Assembly (NCBI RefSeq): GCF_009730915.1
Contig: NC_052474.1
Coordinates: 20,371,501-20,435,500 of the forward strand
DNA length: 64,000 nt
Reading direction: 5' to 3'
Origin: Dioscorea cayenensis subsp. rotundata
Lineage: Eukaryota; Streptophyta; Magnoliopsida; Dioscoreales; Dioscoreaceae
Under the pieces are notes generated by a model. It was given only the letters and a program-made list of their open reading frames with translations, did not search any database and was not told the origin of the DNA. Of this stretch, positions 1 to 19,895 are shown piece by piece. The position numbers and the translations under genes are program-made. The first letter of the stretch is position 1. Every line of letters begins with the position of its first letter.

Positions 1-394
1 TTTTTTTTTTTGGTTTAATGTATGTATGATGGATTGTTTTGGTTTTAGATTTAGTTGTAGTGTCATTGAAAGAACAAAATGATATATTTGAGTCATTTAG
101 GAACAAAAATGAATGTAATTGTGAAATTTGTATATTTAAGAGGGAATCAATGGAAATTGAAATGTGATGATTAGTCTTATGTCTTTATAAGAAAAGTGGA
201 AGCTTTTCCGGTAAAAAGCCGGAGAAAAAGAATAGGTGAAACTAAAAAATGTTTAACAGATGTAATCTTTTGGTTTTTGATAGAGTAATATGTAAGGGAA
301 GGACTTACGTAGCCGACCTCAACAAGTTGGGATTAACGGTTTCTTGTTGTTGTGCAATTCGTTCATTTCATATGAATATATATATAAGGCAAAA

Positions 395-621
395 AGTAAT
401 CTAGGAAAGTCCCATAGATTACTGTATTTTATGGATATTTGATTTAAAACCGGTGGATCATTATCCAACAGTTTTTTGTTTATATAAATACTATACATCT
501 TTTACCGTTATGAATACTGTACAATACTATAGTTTATGATAATCAAAGCCGTCGGATGGTAATCCGATGGTTACTATGGATGTCTCTAGATTTAAACATT
601 TATGGGCGTCTTTAGATTACC
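395..621. repeat. MITE-like inverted repeat in MRL7-A intron 1
   Basis: The ends match as imperfect inverted repeats: AGTAATCTAGGAAAGTCCC at the left, and the right end read in reverse gives GGTAATCTAAAGACGCCC. Inner segments contain ATCCAAC/ATCCGA-type inverted words. The same structure lies in MRL7-B intron 1 (about 14,125-14,360), so insertion predates the segmental duplication. No coding capacity is seen. Superfamily is not clear because I could not find a convincing target duplication. Confidence 0.45.
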
Positions 622-1264
622 AGTCCTCTATATATAAATGAATTTGTAGTTGAGGGATCAAATAAATATGTTTGTGTCATTTAAGAACAAGGATGAATGT
701 ATGCATAAGTTGGAATGGTTCAACTAAAATAACTCTTTTTTGAGTTTGAGACTGAAATAAACATTTGAATATAGTTCAGGAACTAATCATGGACTTGCTA
801 ATTTTTTTCCCTAAGATTTGTTGCAATTTGAATCTTAATTATGGTTGTTGAAGATTTAAACTTTCATACAATTTTTTCCCTAAGAACCTTTGTTTTTACT
901 GTTTTTGTGAGAATTGAATGGTGTTTTACAGGCCAAAAGAGAATGAGAAGGCAAGGATTGAATTAGAGAAAGCAGTGCAGATGTTTTGGGACACTGGATT
1001 ACCTTTCACCCAGAGTAACAACATCAAAAACTTATTGACATTAAAATTAGTCTGTTCTTACAGTTGAGCAATGTTAAACTGTGTTCAATGACTGAATTAC
1101 ATGATCAACAGTGTGTTGCAGTGGATGCTGTTGTTGAAGATGAATTAGCTTCTGTTCTTAAAGTATCCAAGTTCCCTGAGATCATCTTCACTAAAGCCGG
1201 CAAAATACTTCACCGTGATAAAGGTATATGTATAAATATATATATATATATATATATCAAAACA

Positions 1265-1460
1265 TCCTCTGTAGATGTCTACAGATAAAGAAATCTATGG
1301 GTGTCCAATTATCAGTCACTGGATCGTGATCCAATGGCTGGTATTGATAATTCTAAATATTAATTACTGTATTAACTACTATTCATCAATGTTGGTCGTT
1401 GAATCGAGATCTAATGGCTGATAATGAACGCCCATAGATGAATGGTTCTCTATGTATATA
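1265..1460. repeat. MITE-like inverted repeat in MRL7-A intron 3
   Basis: The words AATCTATGGGTGTCC (from about 1290) and, near 1430, their inverted partner GAACGCCCATAGAT enclose further inverted words built on TGGATC/GATCCAATGGCTG. The matching element in copy B lies at about 15,005-15,180. It resembles the intron 1 element in its words and is probably a related non-autonomous DNA transposon. Confidence 0.45.
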
Positions 1461-1646
1461 AGTTTGGGTCTCTCCTCGTATGGGCTTAAGTTTTAATAGA
1501 TTGGATGTTTGTTTGGTTGATGTTTAGTTGTTCGGAGCGGAGACGAGTGGTCCAAGATAATGGCATTCTTTTATTATAAAGCAGTTAGGCCAGCATGTTT
1601 GGAGAAATCAGCTGGTGAGAACCATGAGAAGATTTCATCCCTTTGA

Positions 1647-1833
1647 TTGATGTTATGATGATGATGATGATGATGATTACTTGTGTGTATATCTGCAAGG
1701 AGTTGTTAATTTGTGAATTCAATGTCTCAGGAAATGAGCTTCTTCATCTTATTATATCTTTTTACAAGTTTTCTCAGAGGAAAGTTAATTTATATTGACT
1801 CTGGACCATGCCCAAAAATACCCAGGTCTCAGT

Positions 1834-1864
<31 letters not shown>

Positions 1865-2759
1865 AAAAAAACCTACTTATCACTTAGGAATCTGGGGTTT
1901 TAAATTAATCTGGACGAGGTAGTGGGAGTTTTTGTAAGAGAAAAGGACTTCTCTCAATCCAAGTCTCTACTTTATTATTTATTAATATAATAAATTAATA
2001 ATTCAGTAGTTTCACATGAGTATATTAACATTTTAAAAAATCACATGCATACATATCAAGTTAAATGCCTCTTATTATAAATATTAAGAATTTTTATGTA
2101 TATCATAATAAATACACACATAAGGCCGAGTTTTTTAATGAACATTCATGCACTTTGAATAGTTAAACAGTTAAAAAAATTCAATATACAATATTTTTGA
2201 TCTTAACTATTAGAGTGTGATTCATCTCGATTTTTACTAGTATTCTCTTAAAAAAATCAACAAACACCCAACTATATATTTTTCATGCAAATACATGGGT
2301 TTGAGTACTATTTATATTACTGTTTATACACCGATTTATTTCTATATTTTTTTATCTATATCTTTTCACCAATTGCGGACATTTTGATAAATTCCCATAT
2401 ATACACACACATACATATATGATAGAGTTTTATACATTTTTGTATTTTAAATTGTAATTATTTATAAAATAAATTTATATTTTTTGTATTTATGATTAGT
2501 ATTTTTTTTACTCCTGATAAAAATTAGAATAATATTTTCAAATGCATTAGGGGTAAAAATGTCTTTTTGTTCCATGATTTTGGCGATTTATTAAAGAGGC
2601 TCCTTTTTGTTTTCAAAGAACGAATTAAAAAAAGAAATTAAAAAAATTTGATTTTTTATTTTTATTTTTTATAGGTAGTAATAAAATTTTAAGAACAAAA
2701 AGAATAATTATTATAAAAAAAAAAAAAAAGAAAAAAGAAAAAAGAAAAAAAGAGAAATG
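1647..2759. other. MRL7-A to ATG10-A spacer
   Basis: It holds the MRL7-A 3' flank with a short GAT microsatellite (about 1655-1677), a TA run (about 1838-1860) and AT-rich DNA. It aligns with the spacer after MRL7-B (15,360-16,300), with several small insertions and deletions between the two. No gene is seen. Confidence 0.7.
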
Positions 2760-2762
2760 AAC

Positions 2763-2825
2763 GGGGCAGTTTGAGAACGGAGAGGGTGCTGCTCGAGAAT
2801 CGGGTTGTGAGATTAGGGTTTTCAG
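2763..2825 (+). promoter_or_regulatory. ATG10-A probable 5' leader exon
   Basis: This GC-richer block after a long A/T tract is almost identical to 16,315-16,376 in copy B and ends with a donor-like TTTTCAG/GTATGG. It has no useful ATG frame into ATG10, so I read it as a noncoding first exon with the promoter just upstream. A transcript end would settle this. Confidence 0.4.
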
Positions 2826-3109
2826 GTATGGATCTTGTCTTGGTTTCTTGTTTTGATTAACAAGTTTGCCGATTCTTGATGTAGTTTTATGCCCTTTTTC
2901 TTTTGTGAATTGATTTTATAAATTTATTGTTTGTTCTACTGAATTTGAGTTTCGATCATTAATCCTTGATGGTAAATTTCATTTTATGGTTTAAATTTAA
3001 AAAAATTGTTTTTTGTACTTGTTTGTGAATTTGATGCTATTTCTTTGATTTTCTTGAGTTTAATTTGTTCCTTAATCTGTGAACACAGCAAAGATTTTTG
3101 TTTTTCTTT

Positions 3110-3250
3110 TTAGGGTTTAAGATGCAATTCAAGCACAACAATGAGGCCCTTGACCTGTTGGATGGAATAAAATCTTAAAATGACTTCTTTGTTGCAATAG
3201 GGAACACAAATTGTTGTTTTTATGAAATGAAATTTATTAGAAGGAAGATC
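3110..3250 (+). repeat. Partial upstream copy of ATG10 first coding exon (A)
   Basis: From 3122 the frame MQFKHNNEALDLLDG resembles the real first coding exon 250 bases downstream, which includes LEVWDGTISQKDFYVA. The similarity extends upstream through the TTTTTAGGGTTTA acceptor-like words. In this copy the frame is closed by TAA at 3176-3178. The same block exists in ATG10-B (16,690-16,865), so the exon-level duplication is older than the segment duplication. Confidence 0.55.
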
Positions 3251-3407
3251 TTGTTTGTATTTAATGAATTTAGATGCTGAAAGTGCAAGTATGTGTCAAT
3301 TTGATATGATTTCTATGATAGATAGTGTTTAATTTATTCCTTAACGTGAGAAAAAAAAAACAGTGATTTTTCTTTTTTAGGGTTTAGGCTGCACTTCAAA
3401 CTCAAAA

Positions 3408-4666
3408 ATGAGCAATCTTGAAGTGTGGGATGGAACAATCTCTCAAAAGGATTTCTATGTTGCTGCTAGAACCCTTGTTGAAAGATGGAAACAAGTTAAT
3501 CCCAGTCTTCCCCAGTGGACATGGATTCCTAGTAAATCCACACTTATGGGTTCTTCTTGTAAGGTTGGTCATCCTTGTTTAGTTTTTTTGGTACCTCATG
3601 TTCATCGAATTTGGTATTGTTTCTTTCAACAGGCCTTCTTCTTTTGATGTTATTCTCAGGAAGAAGGATATTTATCACTAGAGAATATGTATCATATTGA
3701 TCGGAATGAGGTCCGTCTTTGAAAACATTGGTGTTGTTGAGTTTCAGTGCAAAAATGAACATAATTCTTTGCTCATCTATATGAGAAACACTTTCGATTG
3801 ATGTTGTTTGTGATAATTCTTTTGTTCAGGAGTGTCTCATTGTAGACAGCTTCTCCGAGAGAGAAGAGACCGATGATGTCGCTACATTGGTACTATATTG
3901 GCTTAACTCATTATGTTCAATTATTTCTTTGCCTTCATCCCTGTTGATATACTTGCAAACAGTTTGCCCAAATCGATTTGATTCCATGTGTGTGTAATAG
4001 TGTATATATATTCAACATGCTGATTAGATCGAATTTGCATTTTGTTTGCCAGGTTCATAGCACCAGTAATGAAACACATATTTATGATTTCCACATTGTA
4101 TATAGTTTTTCCTACCAGGTTCCAGTTCTCTACTTCCATGGATACCAATCCGGTATGTATCTTATTGAAATTTAAACATTACGAAATAATGTATAAATCT
4201 ATATCTGATCACTAGTGGCCGACAATTTGCTTCTTGTTCAGATGGCCAGCCTTTAAATTTAGATGAGATTGAGAATGACCTTCCTCCTTCCTCTTCAAAA
4301 ATTCTAAGAGAATCGAAATGGACTTACATGACCTTAGGGGTATATTCATGTGCTTTCCACCCTGTTCTTCAGCATCAATATGTTGAAATGAACTTGATGT
4401 TGTGACAATAAGAATACGATGTTTTGCTATTCTCGCAGGAACATCCATATTTGCGTCGGCCCTGGTACACATTACACCCTTGTGCGACGAGTGATTGGAT
4501 GAAGTTACTGCTTGGTGGCACGTCCATGAAGGACCTTGACATCTCGAGTTATTTGCTGTCATGGCTATCGGTGGTCGGGCAGGCCGTTGGATTGAGGATC
4601 CCTCTTGAATTGCAGCAAAGGTCTGTAAAACATCCTTCAGCTTCATGTTTCATTATTAATAACTGA
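3408..4666 (+). CDS. ATG10: ATG10, autophagy E2-like conjugating enzyme, copy A
   Basis: ATG10 is the E2-like enzyme that passes ATG12 from ATG7 to ATG5 during autophagosome formation. Coding exons are 3408-3563, 3660-3710, 3830-3889, 4053-4152, 4242-4339 and 4439-4666, all with GT-AG borders and compatible phase (230 residues). Family landmarks are EEGYLSLE (exon 2), YDFHIVYSFSYQVPVLYF (exon 4), SKWTYMT (exon 5) and HPYLRRPWYTLHPCATSDW (exon 6). The Cys in HPC is the expected thioester-forming residue. The C-terminal WLSVVGQAVGLRIPLE matches the usual end of plant ATG10. The last 18 or so residues are read through a possible donor (AG/GTCTG at 4622), so the exact end is uncertain. A noncoding leader exon probably ends at 2825 (TTTTCAG/GTATGG). 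Copy A and copy B differ at six residues by my reading. Confidence 0.88.
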
Positions 4667-5688
4667 CGATTTCTGCTGCATGTATAGTTATCGTTTTCAT
4701 CGTGTGATAATTCTTTGTTGTTGTTTGTTGTTGATATTTTGATCAATTGCTTACCCATGCAACTCAGGCAGATAATTCAGCTCAATTTCCTTTGTGAGTA
4801 GGAATGAACCTGTGATTTTAAGCATGTTTAATAACATCATCCTTTAATTAGTTACTAAAGCCATTAGCAAGACAAATAACATACTTGTAGGATTAATCTG
4901 AAGCATTGGCTGCTTAGAAACACTGAATAATTTCTTGTTGAATTAAATTGTTTTTTCAGATATAAAAAAAATTTAAATTTTTTTTAATGCATACATGTTC
5001 TTTGTTGTGATTTTTTCTGTAATATCTTAAATTTTTAGCATATATTACATACACCTACAAAATCTTCAAAGTTACATGTATATAAAGGCATTCATATTTT
5101 GGCCTTTTCTATTACATATATATACACATCTTTAGTAAAAAAAAAAAAACTTTCGTCAAATTAATAATATGTTATTATTTTATAATAATAGATTAAACTT
5201 GACATGAATTTCTTTGTATGTTAAGTCATATCCATCTATTAATACTATCACTATACATGTATAAATAAAATAAAATTTTTTATTAAAGATACTCCTTTAA
5301 TATGTATATATATATATATCTATAAATATTAATACATATGACATTATAAGTCAATCCCTTCTGCTGCCCACCATCTCTCTTGTGCTTGTTTCCTTCCCCA
5401 TAACTGAAAATTCTCTGATCCTTATCACTTTAATTTTTAACTTTATTTTTATTTCCTTCCCAATAATAGCACCCAATAAATAATAATAAACCGCCAACCA
5501 AACTATCTCCATTTATTATTCATCCAAAAACCAATTTTACATAAAATAAATAAATCATTACTCTAAATAAATATAATTAATGCAGTATAGTAATTGCCCT
5601 TTATAAAAACACAGATCTATTAGTTAATCCCAGTCCATTCCGTTTATAAATAAGGAAAGAACGCGGGGAAAGCTTTTGGAAGAAGAGG
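4667..5688. other. ATG10-A 3' flank, duplication border and PARG promoter
   Basis: Up to about 5,620 this matches 18,268-19,275. The match stops abruptly just after ACACAGATCTAT, which I take as the segment border. A TATAAATA box at 5645-5652 lies 36 bases before the PARG start codon, so either the PARG leader is very short or the box is not the one used. No gene is seen in the AT-rich rest. Confidence 0.6.
5645..5652 (+). promoter_or_regulatory. TATA box upstream of PARG
   Basis: It reads TATAAATA, 36 bases before ATG 5689 and about 25 bases past the duplication border. Its closeness to the ATG implies a leader of only a few bases if it is functional. Confidence 0.4.
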
Positions 5689-11490
<5,802 letters not shown>

Positions 11491-13030
11491 AATGTCTAGA
11501 TAACTACTTCTATTTGTGTATTTTCTTAAAGATAAATAAACAATTATTCTAATTTATGTGAATAATAGTTTGAAAAAAAAATAATGATGAGGTGAAATGG
11601 ATCTATATATATAGACGAAATGTAATGAGCACGTGTTAGGGGCGTGTACAGGCGTATAGCAGAGTCATAAGCACCTAAGTACCTGTGTTTTCATCTTGCG
11701 TGAATATTGAAATTTGATTTCAGGTATTCTGTGAAACAAATATCCTACTCAAGGAATCTGATACTAATTGGTCAAAAAACTATTGGTTGAAAAGTATAAT
11801 TTAAAAAAAATATTGCATTTTTTTTTATATTTAGAATTTCTAAATTTTTTATTAATTTAAACACTATAACAAATATATTGTAGGCAGTTGATCTTAGGTT
11901 TATCCATTTATCATTTTCATAATATTTCACAGGCACAACATTATGTAATTAGCTGTAAGTAGCTGTAATGTAACTGGTTTTACATGTAAAAGGCTGTTTG
12001 GTTTGCTGTGAAATCAGTTTTACATGTAAACAGTTTTACAGTTTTGTGTACTTTTGCTGCATTTCAACTTACAGTAAAAATTTGCTGTAAGTTGAAATGC
12101 AGGAAAACATTTGGGCTAAAATCACCATTCTTCATTCTCCAATTTATGCATTAAAAGAAAATGAAAACTTACATATAATCAATTGTTAGTATAATTAAAC
12201 TTATGTTTATTTATATTTTATTAAATTTATTTATTTTTATTTAAAATATACTAATTTGTATTTAATTTTAATTAAAAAAAATATTTTTTTATATAAAATT
12301 AAAGAATTTTATATATTTTTAATTTAATAAAATTATTATTAAATTAATTAATTAATTAATTTACATTAGTGTTAAGAGTAGATGGGGAGAACTAAATTAA
12401 TTATTTAGAGTTAGTGTTTAATTATTTAAGTTTCTTATTATTATTTGGCTTAGTTATTTGAGTTTCTGATTATTATTTTTAAATGTAATAAATACTTTAT
12501 TAAATCATTTAATTAGTTTAAAAATTAAATTAAATTAAATTAATTATTTTAGTTTAAATTATTTTTTTAAAATGCATTAAATAATTAATAATAATACATT
12601 AGAGTAATCTTACTCTCTACTTACAATGGTGACTATATCTTCTAACTTACATCAAACCAAAACAATTAAAAAGTAATGCAGAGTTTTTCGATTCTGATGA
12701 AACCAAAACGAGCGATGATGTAAATGAAATCGCGACGATTTTTCTTTACTGTAATTTCATCGTAATTTCGACTTACAGCACAAACCAAACAACCCCTAAA
12801 TAATAGTTATTTTGTTTTATAAGGTTATTAAAATGTTAGCAATAATGGATGAGCTATATTTTTAGAAATTATTTATTTTAATAATATTATTTTTAAAATT
12901 ACTCATAAATTTATGAATTTTTAGAAAATATTTATTTTAATAATATTATTGTGGGCCCTTTTATACATAGACCCTTATATAATGTTATAATTTCATTTAT
13001 ATGATACTGTGAAAGAGACAATAGAATAGC
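11491..13030. other. PARG to MRL7-B spacer
   Basis: It is AT-rich and contains the Harbinger-like element listed separately (11,990-12,796) plus the MRL7-B promoter region. Around 11,757 the words GATACTAATTGGTCAAAAAAC resemble part of the small element at 59,157-59,337, so a fragment of the same repeat family may lie here. No gene is seen. Confidence 0.6.
11987..12799. mobile_element. Harbinger/Tourist-like non-autonomous DNA transposon
   Basis: TAA flanks both sides (11,987-11,989 and 12,797-12,799). The left end reads AAGGCTGTTTGGTTTG and the right end reversed reads GGGGTTGTTTGGTTTGTGCTG, so the outer 16 bases agree except at three or four positions. A TAA target duplication with a TGTTTGG terminal word fits the PIF/Harbinger superfamily; hAT elements share similar ends. 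Near the left end, 12,057-12,074 and 12,085-12,102 form a perfect 18-bp inverted pair with a 10-base loop. The interior is AT-rich and shows no transposase. Confidence 0.6.
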
Positions 13031-15359
13031 ATGGCGTTTCTAAATCAACAACTGCCTTTAAAGTGTTCGATGATATGTCTCAAAGACGTTCAAACGCGCA
13101 TCAAATGTTCGACGATATGCTTCAGAGAGTCCAAAGCTCTTCAGAGAGCCCAGTCTCATCCTCTTCTCAAGCTGAGAGCTTCCAAAGCTCTGGATCTCGT
13201 CCTCGGCAACAGAAGCGACGACGATGACGATGACGAGGAGAGCAGCGATGACGACGGACCCTTTCTCATGTCCGGTGAGGAGAGGATGGAGCTGAGAAGA
13301 AAGATAAGGCAAGTGCTGGACTTGCAACCAGAGGTAGAGGAAGAGATGGATCCGGAGAAGCTAAGGATGAAGGCGCTGAAGCTGGCGAGAGATTACTCTC
13401 TTGTTGTGGATGAGGAGGATCCTGATTGGCCGGAGGATGCTGAGGGGAGAGGGTTTAAGCTTGATCAATTCTTTGACAAGTTCTATATCAAAAACGTCAA
13501 GAAGGATGATGCGGATGAGGATGATGAGGAGGAGAAGGAGATTGTTTGGAAGGATGATAACTACATCAAAGCAGTGAAGGATATCACATCCAGTGAGTGG
13601 GAGGACACTGTGTTCAAGGATTTCAATCCTTTGGTCATCCTTGTTCACCATAGATACAGAAGGTTAGCTCTCTTTCTTTCTCATTCTCTCATTTTTGGAT
13701 TGAAAAATGAAAAAAAGCTAACTTTTGGTTTAATGTATGTATGATGGATTGTTTTGGTTTTAGATTTGTAGTGTCATAGAAAGAACAAAATGATATATTT
13801 GAGTCATTTAGGAACAAAAATGAATGTAATTGTGAAATTTGTATATTTAAGATAGAATCAATTGAAATTGAAATGGTATGGACATGTCTTTTTAGATGAT
13901 TAGTCGATGTCTTTATAAGAAAAGTGGAAGCTTTTCCGGTAAAAAGCTGTAGAAAAAAGAATAGGTAAAACTAAAAAATGTTAAACAGATGTAATCTTTT
14001 GGTTTATGATAAGAGTAATATGGAAAGAAGGACTTACGTAGCCAACCTCAACAAGTTGGGATTAACGGCTTCTTGTTGTTGTGCAATTCGTTCATTTCAT
14101 ATGAATATATATATAAGGCAAAAAGTAATTTAGGTAAGTCCCTAGATTATTGTATTTTATGGATATTTGATTTAAAAACGATGGATCATTATCCAACGGT
14201 TGTTTGTTTATATAAATACTATATATCTTTTACTATTAAGATACTGTACAATACTGTAGAACATGTTTTTAGTACTGTTTATGATAATCAAAGCCGTCAC
14301 ATGGTAATCTGACGGTTACTGTGGACGCCCATAAATTTAAAATCTATGGACTCCTTTAGATGACCAGTCCTCTATATATAAATGAATTTGTAGTTGAGGG
14401 ATCAAATAAATATGTTTGTGTCATTTAAGAACAAGGATGAATGTATGCATATGTTTGAATGGTTAAACTAAAATAATTTTTTTTTGAGTTTGAGACTGAA
14501 AATAAACATTTGGATATTGTTCAGGAACTAATCATGGACTTGCTAATTGTTTTTCCTAAGATTTGTTGCAATTTGAATCTTAATTATGGTTGTTGAAGAT
14601 TTAAACTTTCATGTAAACTCTAAGAACCTTTGTTTTTACTGTTTTTGTGAGAATTGAATGATGTTTACAGGCCAAAAGAGAATGAGAAGGCAAGGATTGA
14701 ATTAGAGAAAGCAGTGCAGATGTTTTGGGACACTGGATTACCTTCACCCAGAGTAACAACAACAGCAAAAACTTATTGACATTAAAATTAGTCTGTTCTT
14801 ACAGTTGAGCAATGTTAAACTGTGTTCAATGACTGAATTATATGATCAACAGTGTGTTGCAGTGGATGCTGTTGTTGAAGATGAATTAGCTTCTGTTCTT
14901 AAAGTATCAAAGTTCCCTGAGATCATCTTCACTAAAGCCGGCAAAATACTTCACCGTGATAAAGGTACATGTATATATATATATATATATATATGATAAA
15001 ACACCCTCTGTAGATGTCTACAGATAAGAAATCTATAGGCGTCCAATCATCAGCCATTGGATCGGTCACGATCCAATGATTACTATTGATGAATAGTAGT
15101 ATTATGTGTTCATCAATGTTGGCCGTTGAATCGAGATCCAATATTTGATAATGGATGTCCATAAATGAATAGTTCTCTATATATATTAGTTTGGGTTTTT
15201 CATCGTATTGGCTTTAGTTTTAATAGATTAGATGTTTGGTGATGTTTAGTTGTTCGGAGTGGAGACGAGATAATGGCATTCTTTTACTATAAAGCTGTTA
15301 GGCCAGCATGTTTGGAGAAATCAGCTGGTGAGAACCATGAGAAGATTCCTTCCCTTTGA
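13031..15359 (+). CDS. MRL7: MRL7-type plastid thioredoxin-fold protein, copy B
   Basis: Exons are 13,031-13,662, 14,671-14,752, 14,853-14,964 and 15,250-15,359, in frame throughout (about 311 residues). The N-terminal part has an acidic run (SDDDDDDEESSDDD), then EERMELRRKIRQ, ARDYSL and FKDFNPLVILVHHRY. The thioredoxin-like end has RCVAVDAVVE and FPEIIFTKAGKILHRDK. Such proteins act in plastid nucleoids/stroma and are needed for plastid-encoded polymerase activity and greening. Exon 4 reads RSGDEIMAFFYY: nine bases coding W-S-K, present in copy A, are missing. An in-frame alternative acceptor before exon 3 (exon start 14,805) would add 16 residues but leaves a 52-base intron, so I prefer 14,853. 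The first 55 residues do not look like a standard transit peptide, so the start is uncertain. Confidence 0.82.
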
Positions 15360-15369
15360 TTGATGATAA

Positions 15370-15408
<39 letters not shown>

Positions 15409-16300
15409 AACTGTGTGGATATCTGCATGCAGTTGTTATTTGTGAATTCAATGTCTCAGGAAATGAGCTTCTTCATCTTATATTTTCTTTTTGCAAGTTT
15501 TCACAGAGTAAGTTAATTTATATTGACTCTGGACCATGCCCAAAAACACCCAGGTCTCAGTCAATAATATATATTTTTTTCTAAAAAAACCCACTTATCA
15601 CTTAGGAATCACGGGTTTTAAATTAATCTGGACGAGATAGTGGGAGTTTTTATAATAGAAAAGGACTTCTCTCAATCCTAGTCTCTACTTTATTATTTAT
15701 TAATATAATAAATTAATAATTCAGTAGTTTCACTTAAGTATATAACATCTCAAGTTAAATGCCTCTTATTATTTTTATTTTTATTTTTATAGCTGAATTA
15801 TAAATATTAAAAATTTATATATATATATATATATATGACAATATATATACACACGTGGCCAACTGTCTGTCCATTCTTCATACAAATACATGGTTTGTGT
15901 ACTATTTATATTAGTATATTTATGCACTGATTTATCAATATATCTTTTTATCTATACCTTTTCATCAACTGTGGATATTTTGATGAAATTCCCATGTATA
16001 TATATACATATAGATAGAGTTTTATATGTTTTTGCATTTTAAATTGTAATTTATTTATAAAATAAATTTATATTTGTGTATTTATGATTAGTATGTTTTT
16101 TTTCTCCTGATAAAAATGAGAATAATATTTTCAAATGCATTAGGGGTAAAAATGTCTTTTTGTTCCATGATTTGGCGTTTTATTGAAGAGGCTCTTTTTT
16201 ATTTCAATAAACAAATTAAAAAGAAAATTATTTTTTTATTTTTTTATAGGTAGTAATAAAATTCTAAGAACAAAAAAATAAAAATAAAAATATTAGAAAA
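15360..16300. other. MRL7-B to ATG10-B spacer
   Basis: It starts with a GAT microsatellite (about 15,370-15,407) longer than in copy A. The rest is AT-rich DNA matching 1,647-2,750. No gene is seen. Confidence 0.7.
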
Positions 16301-16314
16301 ATAGAGAAAGAACG

Positions 16315-16376
16315 GAGCAGTTTGAGAACGGAGAGGGTGCTGCTCGAGAATCGGGTTGTGAGATTAGGGTTTTCAG
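16315..16376 (+). promoter_or_regulatory. ATG10-B probable 5' leader exon
   Basis: It is the counterpart of 2763-2825, ending TTTTCAG/GTATGG. Its conservation against a more diverged AT-rich surround suggests it is transcribed. Confidence 0.4.
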
Positions 16377-16689
16377 GTATGGATCTTGTTTTGATTAACA
16401 AGTTTGCTGATTCTTGATGTAGTTTTATGCACTTTTTCTTTTGTGAATTGATTTTATAAATTTATTATTTGTTCTACTGAATTTGAGTTTTGGTTAGTAA
16501 ATTTTTCCAGAATCCTTAATTCGTTGCTTTTCGATCATTAATTCTTGATGGAAATTTCATTTTATGGTTTAAATTAAAAAAAAAAAAAATTTGTTGTTTG
16601 TACTTGTCTGTGAATTTGATGCTATTTCTTTGATTTTCTTGAGTTTAATTTGTTCCTTAATCTGTGAACACAGCAAAGATTTTTGTTTT

Positions 16690-16865
16690 CCTTTTTAGGG
16701 TTTAAGATGCAATTCAAGCACAACAATGAGGCCCTTGACCTGTTGGATGGAATAAAATCTCAAAATGACTTCTTTGTTGCAATAGGGAACACAAATTATT
16801 GTTTTTATGAAATGAAATTTATTAGAAGGAAGATCTTGTTTGTATTTAATGAATTTAGATGTTGA
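16690..16865 (+). repeat. Partial upstream copy of ATG10 first coding exon (B)
   Basis: ATG 16,707 opens MQFKHNNEALDLLDGIKSQ and the frame stays open to 16,863-16,865, unlike copy A. It parallels the true exon (NLEVWDGTISQKDFYVA) but does not splice into ATG10 in any obvious frame. It could serve as an upstream ORF if it is retained in the leader. Confidence 0.5.
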
Positions 16866-16992
16866 AAGTGTAAGTATGTGTCAATTTGATATAATTTCTC
16901 TGATAGATAGTGTTTAATTTATTCCTTAACGTGAGAAAAAAAAGCAGTGATTTTTCTTTTTTTTAGGGTTTAGGCTGCACTTCAAACACAAA

Positions 16993-18267
16993 ATGAGCAA
17001 TCTTGAAGTGTGGGATGGAACAATCTCTCAAAAGGATTTCTATGTTGCTCTTAGAACCCTTGTTGAAAGATGGAAACAAGTTAATCCCAGTCTTCCCCAG
17101 TGGACATGGATTCCTAGTAAATCCACACTTATGGGTTCTTCTTGTAAGGTTGGTCATCCTTGTTTACTTTTTCGGCACCTCATGTTCATCGAATTTGGTA
17201 TTGTTTCTTTCAACAGGCCTTCTTCTTTTGATGTTATTCTCAGGAAGAAGGATATTTATCACTAGAGAATATGTATGATATTGATCGGAATGAGGTCCGT
17301 CTTTGAAAACATTGGTGTTGTTGAGTTTCAGTGCAAAAATGTACATAATTCTTTGCTCATCTATATGTGAAACACTTTCGATTGATGTTGTTTGTCATAA
17401 TTCTTTTGTTCAGGAGTGTCTCATTGTAGACAGCTTCTCCGAGAGAGAAGAGACCGATGATGTCGCTACATTGGTACTATATTGGCTTAACTCATTATGC
17501 TCTTTTTCTTTGTAAGTTTCAATTATTTCTTCGCCTTCATCCCTGTTGATATACTTGCAAACAGTTTGTCCAAATCGATTTGATTCAATGTGTGTTTGTG
17601 TATATATACATTTAACATGCTGATCAGATAGAATTTGCATTTTGTTTGCCAGGTTCATAGCACCAGTAATGAAGCACATATTTATGATTTCCACATTGTA
17701 TATAGCTTTTCCTACCAGGTTCCAGTTCTCTACTTCCATGGATACCAATCTGGTATGTATCTTATTGAAATTTAAACATTACGAAGTAATATATAAATCT
17801 ATTATCTGATCACTAGTGGCCGGTAATTCGCTTCTTGTTCAGATGGTCAGCCTTTAAATTTGGATGAGATTGAGAATGACCTTCCTCCTTCCTCTTCAAA
17901 AATTCTAAGAGAATCAAAATGGACTTACATGACCTTAGGGGTATGTTCATGTGCTTTCCATCCTGTTCTTCAACATCAATATGTCGAAATGAACCAGATG
18001 TTGTGACAATAAGAATACGATGTTTTGCTATTCTCACAGGAACATCCATATTTGCATCGGCCCTGGTACACATTACACCCTTGTGCGACGAGTGATTGGA
18101 TGAAGTTACTGCTCGGTGGCACGTCCATGAAGGACCTTGATATCTCGGGCTATTTGCTGTCATGGCTATCGGTGGTCGGCCAGGCGGTCGGATTGAGTAT
18201 ACCTCTTGAATTGCAGCAAAGGTCTGTTAAACATCCTTCAGCTTCATGTTTTATTATTAATAACTGA
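16993..18267 (+). CDS. ATG10: ATG10, autophagy E2-like conjugating enzyme, copy B
   Basis: Coding exons are 16,993-17,148, 17,244-17,294, 17,414-17,473, 17,653-17,752, 17,843-17,940 and 18,040-18,267, with the same exon sizes as copy A, all GT-AG and in frame (230 residues). The catalytic HPC motif and the ATG10 core (SYQVPVLYF, SKWTYMT, WYTLHPCATSDWMKLL) are intact. Differences from copy A that I can see, A to B: A to L in exon 1, H to D in exon 2, T to A in exon 4, and R to H, S to G and R to S in exon 6. None touches the catalytic Cys. So both copies look able to make ATG12-ATG5 conjugating enzyme. Shared promoter-side DNA suggests similar expression. As in copy A, the C-terminal tail after LQQ depends on whether GTCTG at 18,224 is used as a donor. 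Confidence 0.88.
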
Positions 18268-19499
18268 CGATTTCTGCTGCATATATAGTTATGATTTATC
18301 GTTTTCATCGCGTGAATATTCTTTGTTGTTATTTGTTGTCGATATTTTTTATCAATTGCTTACCCATGCAATTCAGGCAGATAATGTAGGTCAATTTCCT
18401 TTGTGAGAAGAAATGAACCTGTGATTTTAAGCATGTTTAATAAGATCATCCATTAATTAGTTACTAAAGCCATTAGCAAGAAAAATGAGAGACTTGTAGG
18501 ATTAATCTGAAGCATTGGTTGCTTAGAAACACTGAATAATTAATTTATTGTGGAATTAAATTGTTTTTTCAGTTATAAAAAAAAATTAATTTTTTTTTTA
18601 CTGCATACATGTTCTTTGTTGTGATTTTTTCTGTAATATATCTTAAATTTTTAGCATGGATTACATACACCTACAAAACCTTCAAAGTTACATGTATATA
18701 AAGGCATTTATATTTTGGCCTTTTCTATTACATATATACACATCTTTAGTCAAAAAAAAAAAAAAATAAAAATCTTTTGTCAAATTAATAATATGTTATT
18801 ATTTAATAATAATAAATGAAACTTGACATGATTTTCTTTGCATGTTAAGTCATATCCATCTATAAAATTTGTCTATATTTGAAATATATCTATTAATACT
18901 ATCACTATACATGTATAAATAAAAGAAATTTTTTATTAAAGATACTCCTTTAATATATATATATATAATATATAAATATTAGTATATATGACATCATAAG
19001 TCAATCTCTTCTGCTGCCCAGCTTCTCTCTTGTGCTTGTTTCCTTCCCCATAACTGAAAATTCTCTGATCTTTATCACTTTAATTTTTAACTTTATTTTT
19101 ATTTCCTTTCCAATAATAGCACCCAATAAATAATAATAAACCGCCAACCAAACTATCTCCATTTATTATTTAACCAAAAAAAAAACCAATTTTATATAAA
19201 ATAAATAAATCATTACTCTAAATAAATATAATTAATGCAGTATAGTAATTGCTCTTTATAAAAACACAGATCTATAAGTACACGTGTCATCAATCCAAAG
19301 GACAAATCTCTCTAAGAGTTCTAACAAAGCACCGCTTCGTCCTGTGAAGACACATAAACTCCCTTTTCTTCTTCTTTTTTCTTCTTTTTTCCTTTTTCTC
19401 TCTCACTGGAAACCCTCAAAACCCTAGCGAAATTTGAATCCTTTTTGGTTGAAATCCCTAAAAAGCTTTCAATCTTTTGCCTAAAAATCGTCTTTTGAG
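18268..19499. other. ATG10-B 3' flank, duplication border, leader of small gene
   Basis: It matches 4,667-5,620 up to about 19,275. After that, single-copy sequence begins with TACACGTGTCATC (a G-box-like ACACGTGT at about 19,279). A pyrimidine-rich leader (about 19,355-19,400) precedes the next gene. No other gene is seen. Confidence 0.6.
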
Positions 19500-19513
19500 A
19501 TGTCGCTGACGGG

Positions 19514-19546
<33 letters not shown>

Positions 19547-19895
19547 GCCGGGGAGCTACGAAGAGCCCTACAGGCACCGAAGCAGTGGCGGCTCGATCGG
19601 GCCAGTTATCGCCGTGCTGGCCGTCATCGCAGTGCTCGGAGTGATCGCCGGAGTGATCGGCCGACTCTGCTCCGGCCGCCGTGTCTGGGGTTGCCGGCAG
19701 TACGATTTCGAGGGCTGGATCGAAAGGAAGTGCGCTTCCTGCATCGATGGTCGCCTAGATCATCACCACCACCACCACCCCCGCCCGCCTCCGCCGTCGC
19801 TGGTTCCCGGGAGTACGAACGGCCCACCAGCGTCCACGGCCGAGACCTCGTCGGAGATGAAGCCTCCCGAGCCGGCGCCGCCTGCTCCGGTTTGA
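19500..19895 (+). CDS. Small single-pass membrane protein, uncharacterised plant family
   Basis: This is a one-exon gene of 131 residues. A polyglutamine run (residues 7-15, CAG repeats) and a basic patch are followed by one hydrophobic segment (about 34-54, GPVIAVLAVIAVLGVIAGVI). Then comes a Cys-rich juxtamembrane part, CRQYDFEGWIERKCASCIDG, then a His run (88-93) and a proline-rich tail. The YDFEGW...KCASCIDG block looks like the conserved core of a plant-only family, but I do not recognise a named function. A T/C-rich leader supports ATG 19,500, and the codon use is GC-rich. It lies just outside the duplicated segment and has no copy in the window. Confidence 0.75.

Follow-up and report, generated by a model that had tools for sequence, protein, structure and literature searches.

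A head-to-tail duplication of PARG, MRL7L and ATG10 in yam with a different gene probably broken in each of its two units

A 64,000-nucleotide stretch of the genome of Dioscorea cayenensis subsp. rotundata (C4:20,371,501-20,435,500, hereafter the window, from an assembly of 584.2 Mb in 2,249 contigs) carries genes for PARG, an MRL7-type protein and ATG10 that have been copied once, as a ~13-kb head-to-tail tandem. We analyzed the window together with 30 kb of added left flank, such that coordinates of zero or below lie left of the window, and we mark the gene copies of the left and right units with L and R. Both units read PARG, spacer, MRL7L (our name for the MRL7-type gene), ATG10, all on the plus strand:

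-7,044 (C4:20,364,456) to 5,620, plus strand: left unit, 12,665 bp; its PARG lies left of the window
1 to 5,620, plus strand: part of the left unit inside the window, with the 3' part of MRL7L_L, ATG10_L and the downstream spacer
-7,002 to -1,283, plus strand: PARG_L, 11 exons, complete, 545 aa open
-692 to -64, plus strand: MRL7L_L exon 1, open
932 to 1,646, plus strand: MRL7L_L exons 2-4; an extra T within 1,004-1,006 in exon 2 shifts the frame and gives an early stop
3,408 to 4,666, plus strand: ATG10_L, 6 exons, 230 aa, open
5,647 to 19,275, plus strand: right unit, 13,629 bp, with PARG_R, a spacer with a transposable element, MRL7L_R, ATG10_R and the downstream spacer
5,689 to 11,490, plus strand: PARG_R, 11 exons; a 1-bp deletion in exon 4 at 7,695 (codon 243 of PARG_L)
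13,031 to 15,359, plus strand: MRL7L_R, 4 exons, 311 aa, open
16,993 to 18,267, plus strand: ATG10_R, 6 exons, 230 aa, open; Pfam Autophagy_act_C (PF03987)

BLASTN of the window against itself gave two collinear, same-strand matches, 8-2,031 with 13,723-15,748 and 2,278-5,624 with 15,873-19,279. Aligned to its right twin, 12-5,624 differs at 352 of 5,356 columns (93.4% identity; Kimura two-parameter distance 0.069) with 64 indel events, and the offset between the copies drops from 13,715 to 13,655. The last stretch that they share is an exact match, CTTTATAAAAACACAGATCTAT, which ends at 5,620 on the left and 19,275 on the right. These data reproduce the repeat of 12-5,620 and 13,727-19,275, with a falling offset and a sharp right end, that a sequence-only reading of the window had described. 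The match stops on the left simply because the window begins there; homology runs on to -7,044 in the left unit and 5,647 in the right, with -7,044..-1,103 matching 5,647..11,674 at 92.3% and -964..0 matching 12,798..13,724 at 90.8%. The same reading had proposed PARG-spacer-MRL7-ATG10 as the duplicated unit, with a second PARG left of the window, and had named the absence of PARG within ~15 kb leftwards as the outcome that would speak against it; instead, the complete 11-exon PARG at -7,002..-1,283 lies within that distance. On the assembly, the two adjacent, same-orientation units, homologous over coding and noncoding DNA and with unlike outer flanks, form a tandem segmental duplication. No third unit was found in the genome searches with the three genes or in the 30-kb left flank.

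We next turn to the state of each gene. PARG proteins carry a signature of the form GGG-X6-8-QEE. The translation of PARG_L has both PARG_cat_N and PARG_cat_C (PF05028/PF20811) and contains GGGALVWGCVQEE, identifying it as a PARG, whereas PARG_R as read is 264 aa long, has the N domain only and lacks the catalytic C-terminal domain, and does not qualify as one. Alignment to one solved PARG runs through in the PARG_L frame; PARG_R is therefore the frameshifted copy, and we reject the converse, that PARG_L is the broken one. Genome-wide, all 22 listed PARG matches (19 of 19 candidates scored) belong to the two units, and this search found no other close PARG. The two copies differ by a synonymous divergence (dS) of 0.049 and a replacement divergence (dN) of 0.020.

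For the MRL7-type protein, the sole solved relative above threshold is Arabidopsis MRL7L (6ne8, E 5e-55), and the protein has the thioredoxin (Trx)-like C-terminal domain of MRL7L/NCP; the comparison table listed no MRL7, so MRL7 remains compatible. The sequence-only reading had called the gene MRL7; MRL7L/NCP is the better name. In Arabidopsis this gene is At2g31840, likely null mutants of which are albino according to the excerpted text of PMC6570768. MRL7L_R has a 9-bp in-frame deletion at 15,267 that removes three residues, which are WSK in MRL7L_L and LSK in Arabidopsis MRL7L. The pair has dS 0.050 and dN 0.008. Eight of the nine MRL7L matches listed genome-wide lie within the units, the ninth being distant (39%, at C4:21,106,295), and the search found no other close MRL7L. 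ATG10 carries an HPC motif, which is present in both ATG10 translations; the Autophagy_act_C domain was scanned in ATG10_R only. The ATG10 pair (dS 0.103, dN 0.013) has fewer replacement changes than expected under neutrality (P = 0.00001).

The new finding, which we consider likely from the predicted reading frames, is that the two units are reciprocally broken: PARG would be frameshifted on the right and open on the left, MRL7L the reverse, and ATG10 open in both. We infer that both single-base frameshifts are real. Replacement and synonymous changes stand at 25:17 in PARG versus 13:23 in MRL7L and ATG10 pooled (Fisher two-sided P = 0.045, one-sided 0.033), and this raised replacement share in PARG is as expected if one PARG copy had been released later. 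The finding also corrects the gene naming, since the PARG inside the window has probably acquired a foreign upstream region and begun to decay, and the presumed working PARG is the one just outside, with its first exon ~7 kb to the left.

The foreign upstream region arises at the joint between the units, where three further features are relevant:

5,341 to 5,620, plus strand: copied spacer from downstream of ATG10, which now immediately precedes PARG_R; the counterpart in the right unit precedes a separate open reading frame (ORF) at 19,500
5,621 to 5,646, no strand assigned: junction insert, 26 bp, found at neither outer edge of the units
19,500 to 19,895: ORF whose small predicted product has a hydrophobic segment; its start lies 225 bp past the end of the right unit

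Both units begin with the same left edge, TAAATAAGG, at -7,044 and 5,647. The sequence before this edge differs, being AT-rich at -7,044 and consisting at 5,647 of the 26 bp that follow the copied ATG10 spacer. Within the insert, the 14 bp at 5,622-5,635 recur without a mismatch in ATG10 exon 1 (at 3,494 and 17,079), and the next 9 bp, at 5,636-5,644, do so in PARG exon 1 (at 5,727 and -6,964). A 14-bp match arose by chance in 13 of 4,000 shuffles and 14 of 4,000 dinucleotide shuffles; a 23-bp tiling by two pieces arose in 2 of 4,000 of either kind. The choice of insert limits matters, as a 20-bp version has an unremarkable best match of 11. From these matches, the 26 bp are probably filler at an end-joining junction, with ATG10 exon 1 and PARG exon 1 as the templates that were copied, an origin that is favored, not proven.

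We are confident that a single tandem duplication by end joining produced the locus. In this mechanism, one break would have fallen 42 bp ahead of the PARG start codon and the other ~225 bp ahead of the start codon of the ORF after ATG10. End joining would have connected the ends without long homology, probably with the 26-bp filler between them. PARG_R, at the new joint, would thereby have been left with 42 bp of its own upstream DNA, behind the ATG10 downstream spacer, and later sorting would have kept an open PARG in the left unit alone, an open MRL7L in the right unit alone and an open ATG10 in both. Our confidence attaches to the duplication by end joining; reciprocal breakage is graded separately, and the odds we give the alternatives overlap with it. 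In the excerpted text of a study of copy-number variants in flies (PMC4056370), large extra stretches at 10 breakpoints are called filler and taken as favoring non-homologous end joining over replication-associated repair. The yam joint resembles those breakpoints in its breaks without long homology and its short insert, but differs in that the insert seems to be tiled from two exons of its own unit, with modest statistics.

Pooled over the three genes, 40 synonymous changes over 688.7 sites give dS 0.060 (binomial 95% 0.042-0.080). At a rate of 5-7 substitutions per site per billion years, the duplication is probably ~4-6 million years old. The pooled value is near the median synonymous divergence of 0.064 between Dioscorea alata and D. 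rotundata that the excerpted text of PMC9010478 reports. Introns differ by 5.4% in PARG, 5.2% in ATG10 and 8.4% in MRL7L, and the whole unit by 6.2% (764 of 12,337 columns, including poorly aligned stretches around 11,537-12,988 and 15,805-16,058).

Several observations weigh against this account of the locus. Each of the two indels that break a gene consists of a single base in one assembly. The MRL7L pair has only 6 replacement versus 9 synonymous changes (P for so few under neutrality 0.0008), which means that MRL7L_L either broke very recently or only seems broken through an error. Replacement changes likewise fall short of the neutral expectation in the PARG pair (P = 0.005), so PARG_R cannot have spent most of its existence free of constraint. 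PARG_L itself has W279 close to the signature and C107 at a position occupied by R in a solved PARG, residues by which it may perhaps not be fully normal. At the joint, real 26-mers used as a control weaken the filler match, reaching the 14-bp match in 30 and the tiling in 15 of 4,000 cases, and the 26 bp could instead be original PARG upstream sequence that was lost on the left. Finally, divergence is uneven, at 1.0-1.4% over 8,667-9,722 versus about 3-7% across most of the rest of PARG; between 8,958 and 9,776, a run of 500 noncoding columns contains only 7 mismatches, a level reached by none of 1,000 shuffles (shuffling ignores local constraint). Gene conversion in PARG after the duplication is plausible, and a single age accordingly does not fit all parts of the unit.

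Some of these points feed the alternative that the tandem is real and all genes work in both copies, the two frameshifts being base-calling errors. Both frameshifts are indeed one-base indels, MRL7L exons 2-4 show 1 replacement versus 5 synonymous changes, and the PARG pair is still below the neutral share of replacements; but this share is raised in PARG relative to the other two genes and PARG_R retains just 42 bp of its own upstream DNA, and we regard wholesale base-calling error as unlikely. A more radical possibility is that the duplication is false, an assembler having placed two haplotypes of one locus in succession. A whole unit repeated head to tail is the layout that such an error gives, and the assembly has 2,249 contigs. 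However, the only run of undetermined bases (N) between -29,999 and 64,000 lies at -27,070..-26,071, with none from -26,070 to 64,000; the joint has 26 bp seen at neither outer edge, and the outer flanks are unlike the joint; the pooled dS is as large as the between-species median in PMC9010478's excerpted text; and searches of the 2,249 contigs turned up no additional close copy of the three genes, a relic of ATG10 on C7 excepted. We consider a false duplication very improbable.

Two other routes to a real duplication would differ from end joining in mechanism. Unequal crossing-over between repeats flanking the unit draws some support from a high-copy repeat at about -8,079..-7,701, which ends ~650 bp left of the unit. 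Yet the left edge, the joint and the right edge have only a few bases in common. When we searched the genome with the 1,061 bp ending at the left edge, scoring 40 of 1,140 candidates, one partial match on C19 reached to about -7,453, and the final ~410 bp before the edge had no match elsewhere among the candidates scored. As no repeat was seen across the unit edges, we set repeat-mediated crossing-over aside, its probability being a little lower still than that of a false duplication. A dispersed insertion of MRL7L-ATG10 alone beside a single PARG is compatible with the window taken by itself, but is refuted by the second PARG upstream, which shows that PARG was copied too, with order and orientation unchanged, and we give it almost no weight. 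Duplication by end joining is thus the reading that we carry forward.

What the duplication did to the fate of its genes is a more tentative matter. Conceivably, though we would not bet on it, the breakpoint separated PARG_R from its native upstream region and in doing so determined which PARG decays, MRL7L was later lost from the other unit, and the array was thereby locked in; we infer the upstream-region swap as the cause of PARG_R decay. If lock-in is true, the only intact PARG and the only intact MRL7L sit in different units, and loss of either unit would be harmful. Reciprocal (divergent) duplicate-gene loss is mostly discussed for whole-genome duplicates; the yam locus resembles it in that each of two genes is kept in a different copy, here within one local two-unit array. 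The locus would offer a small natural example of a tandem duplication that replaced an upstream region and was followed by reciprocal gene sorting. As an event it is of a known kind and well resolved, a tidy but ordinary example of duplicate-gene sorting. A search aimed at this locus in openly licensed papers listed none that treats it, judged by title or abstract start. With an age near the split of two cultivated yams, the duplication may make a useful presence/absence marker, and the two ATG10 copies pose the testable question of a possible rise in autophagy capacity.

PARG has also been duplicated in Arabidopsis, where, in the excerpted text of PMC4287526, PARG1 and PARG2 (At2g31870 and At2g31865) are adjacent, likely tandem duplicates with activity only for PARG1, accompanied by the pseudogene At2g31860. 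That pair is like the yam locus in having adjacent PARG copies. The locus numbering suggests that the PARG-MRL7L neighborhood is old and shared with Arabidopsis. With a dS of ~0.05 between the yam copies, the yam event is independent of the PARG1/PARG2 duplication. Unlike in Arabidopsis, where the excerpt describes duplication of PARG alone, in yam PARG, MRL7L and ATG10 were copied together and the losses lie in different copies.

Two transposable elements lie within the right unit:

7,765 to 8,201, no strand assigned: insertion resembling a miniature inverted-repeat transposable element (MITE), in PARG intron 4, with outer inverted arms at 7,765-7,795 and 8,171-8,201
11,940 to 12,796, no strand assigned: Harbinger-like non-autonomous element, in the right copy only; the 5' limit is uncertain (~11,931-11,950, end worn) and TAA follows the 3' end

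The sequence-only reading had suggested that these elements could date the event. For the MITE an order can be given: it is present in both units with only one-base indels between the copies, and is therefore older than the duplication. The right-only Harbinger-like element is less informative. PIF/Harbinger elements have a 3-bp TWA target duplication and GGGG-type terminal repeats, hallmarks that the 3' end of the window copy fits, its 5' end being worn; among three other copies that we aligned, two have TTAGG/TTAGGGG-type 5' ends and all three have CCCC-ends. A genome search gave 711 first-look candidates, of which 40 were scored, and a consensus was taken as the majority of 21 copies picked from the better matches. 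The window copy differs from this consensus at 63 of 827 sites (7.6%; 3.4% by transversions), and the 21 copies that make the consensus differ from it by 1.1-6.1%. Its 7.6% exceeds the ~3% per copy accumulated since the duplication, and the element gives no clean date. It may predate the duplication, in which case it was lost from the left unit, or may be a later arrival that is unusually divergent.

Some smaller features of the units and their surroundings deserve mention. Divergence between the copies is high and transition-rich at 401-600 and 1,225-1,528, in MRL7L introns. Intron 3 of MRL7L diverges by 15%; within it, 1,225-1,465 has matches to a high-copy repeat at dozens of places in the genome, a pattern such as a methylated MITE-like repeat would give. 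Immediately before ATG10, both units carry a partial tandem duplicate of ATG10 exon 1 (3,024-3,463 and 16,609-17,048; 73-75% identity), which is therefore older than the segmental duplication. The ATG10 relic on C7, at 27,386,703-27,387,563, consists of three pieces, with 72% identity in the first exon and a stop in one piece; the matches listed by the PARG and MRL7L genome searches include none on C7. Near the left unit, at -11,097..-8,918, lies an inverted repeat of ~940 bp with 78% identity.

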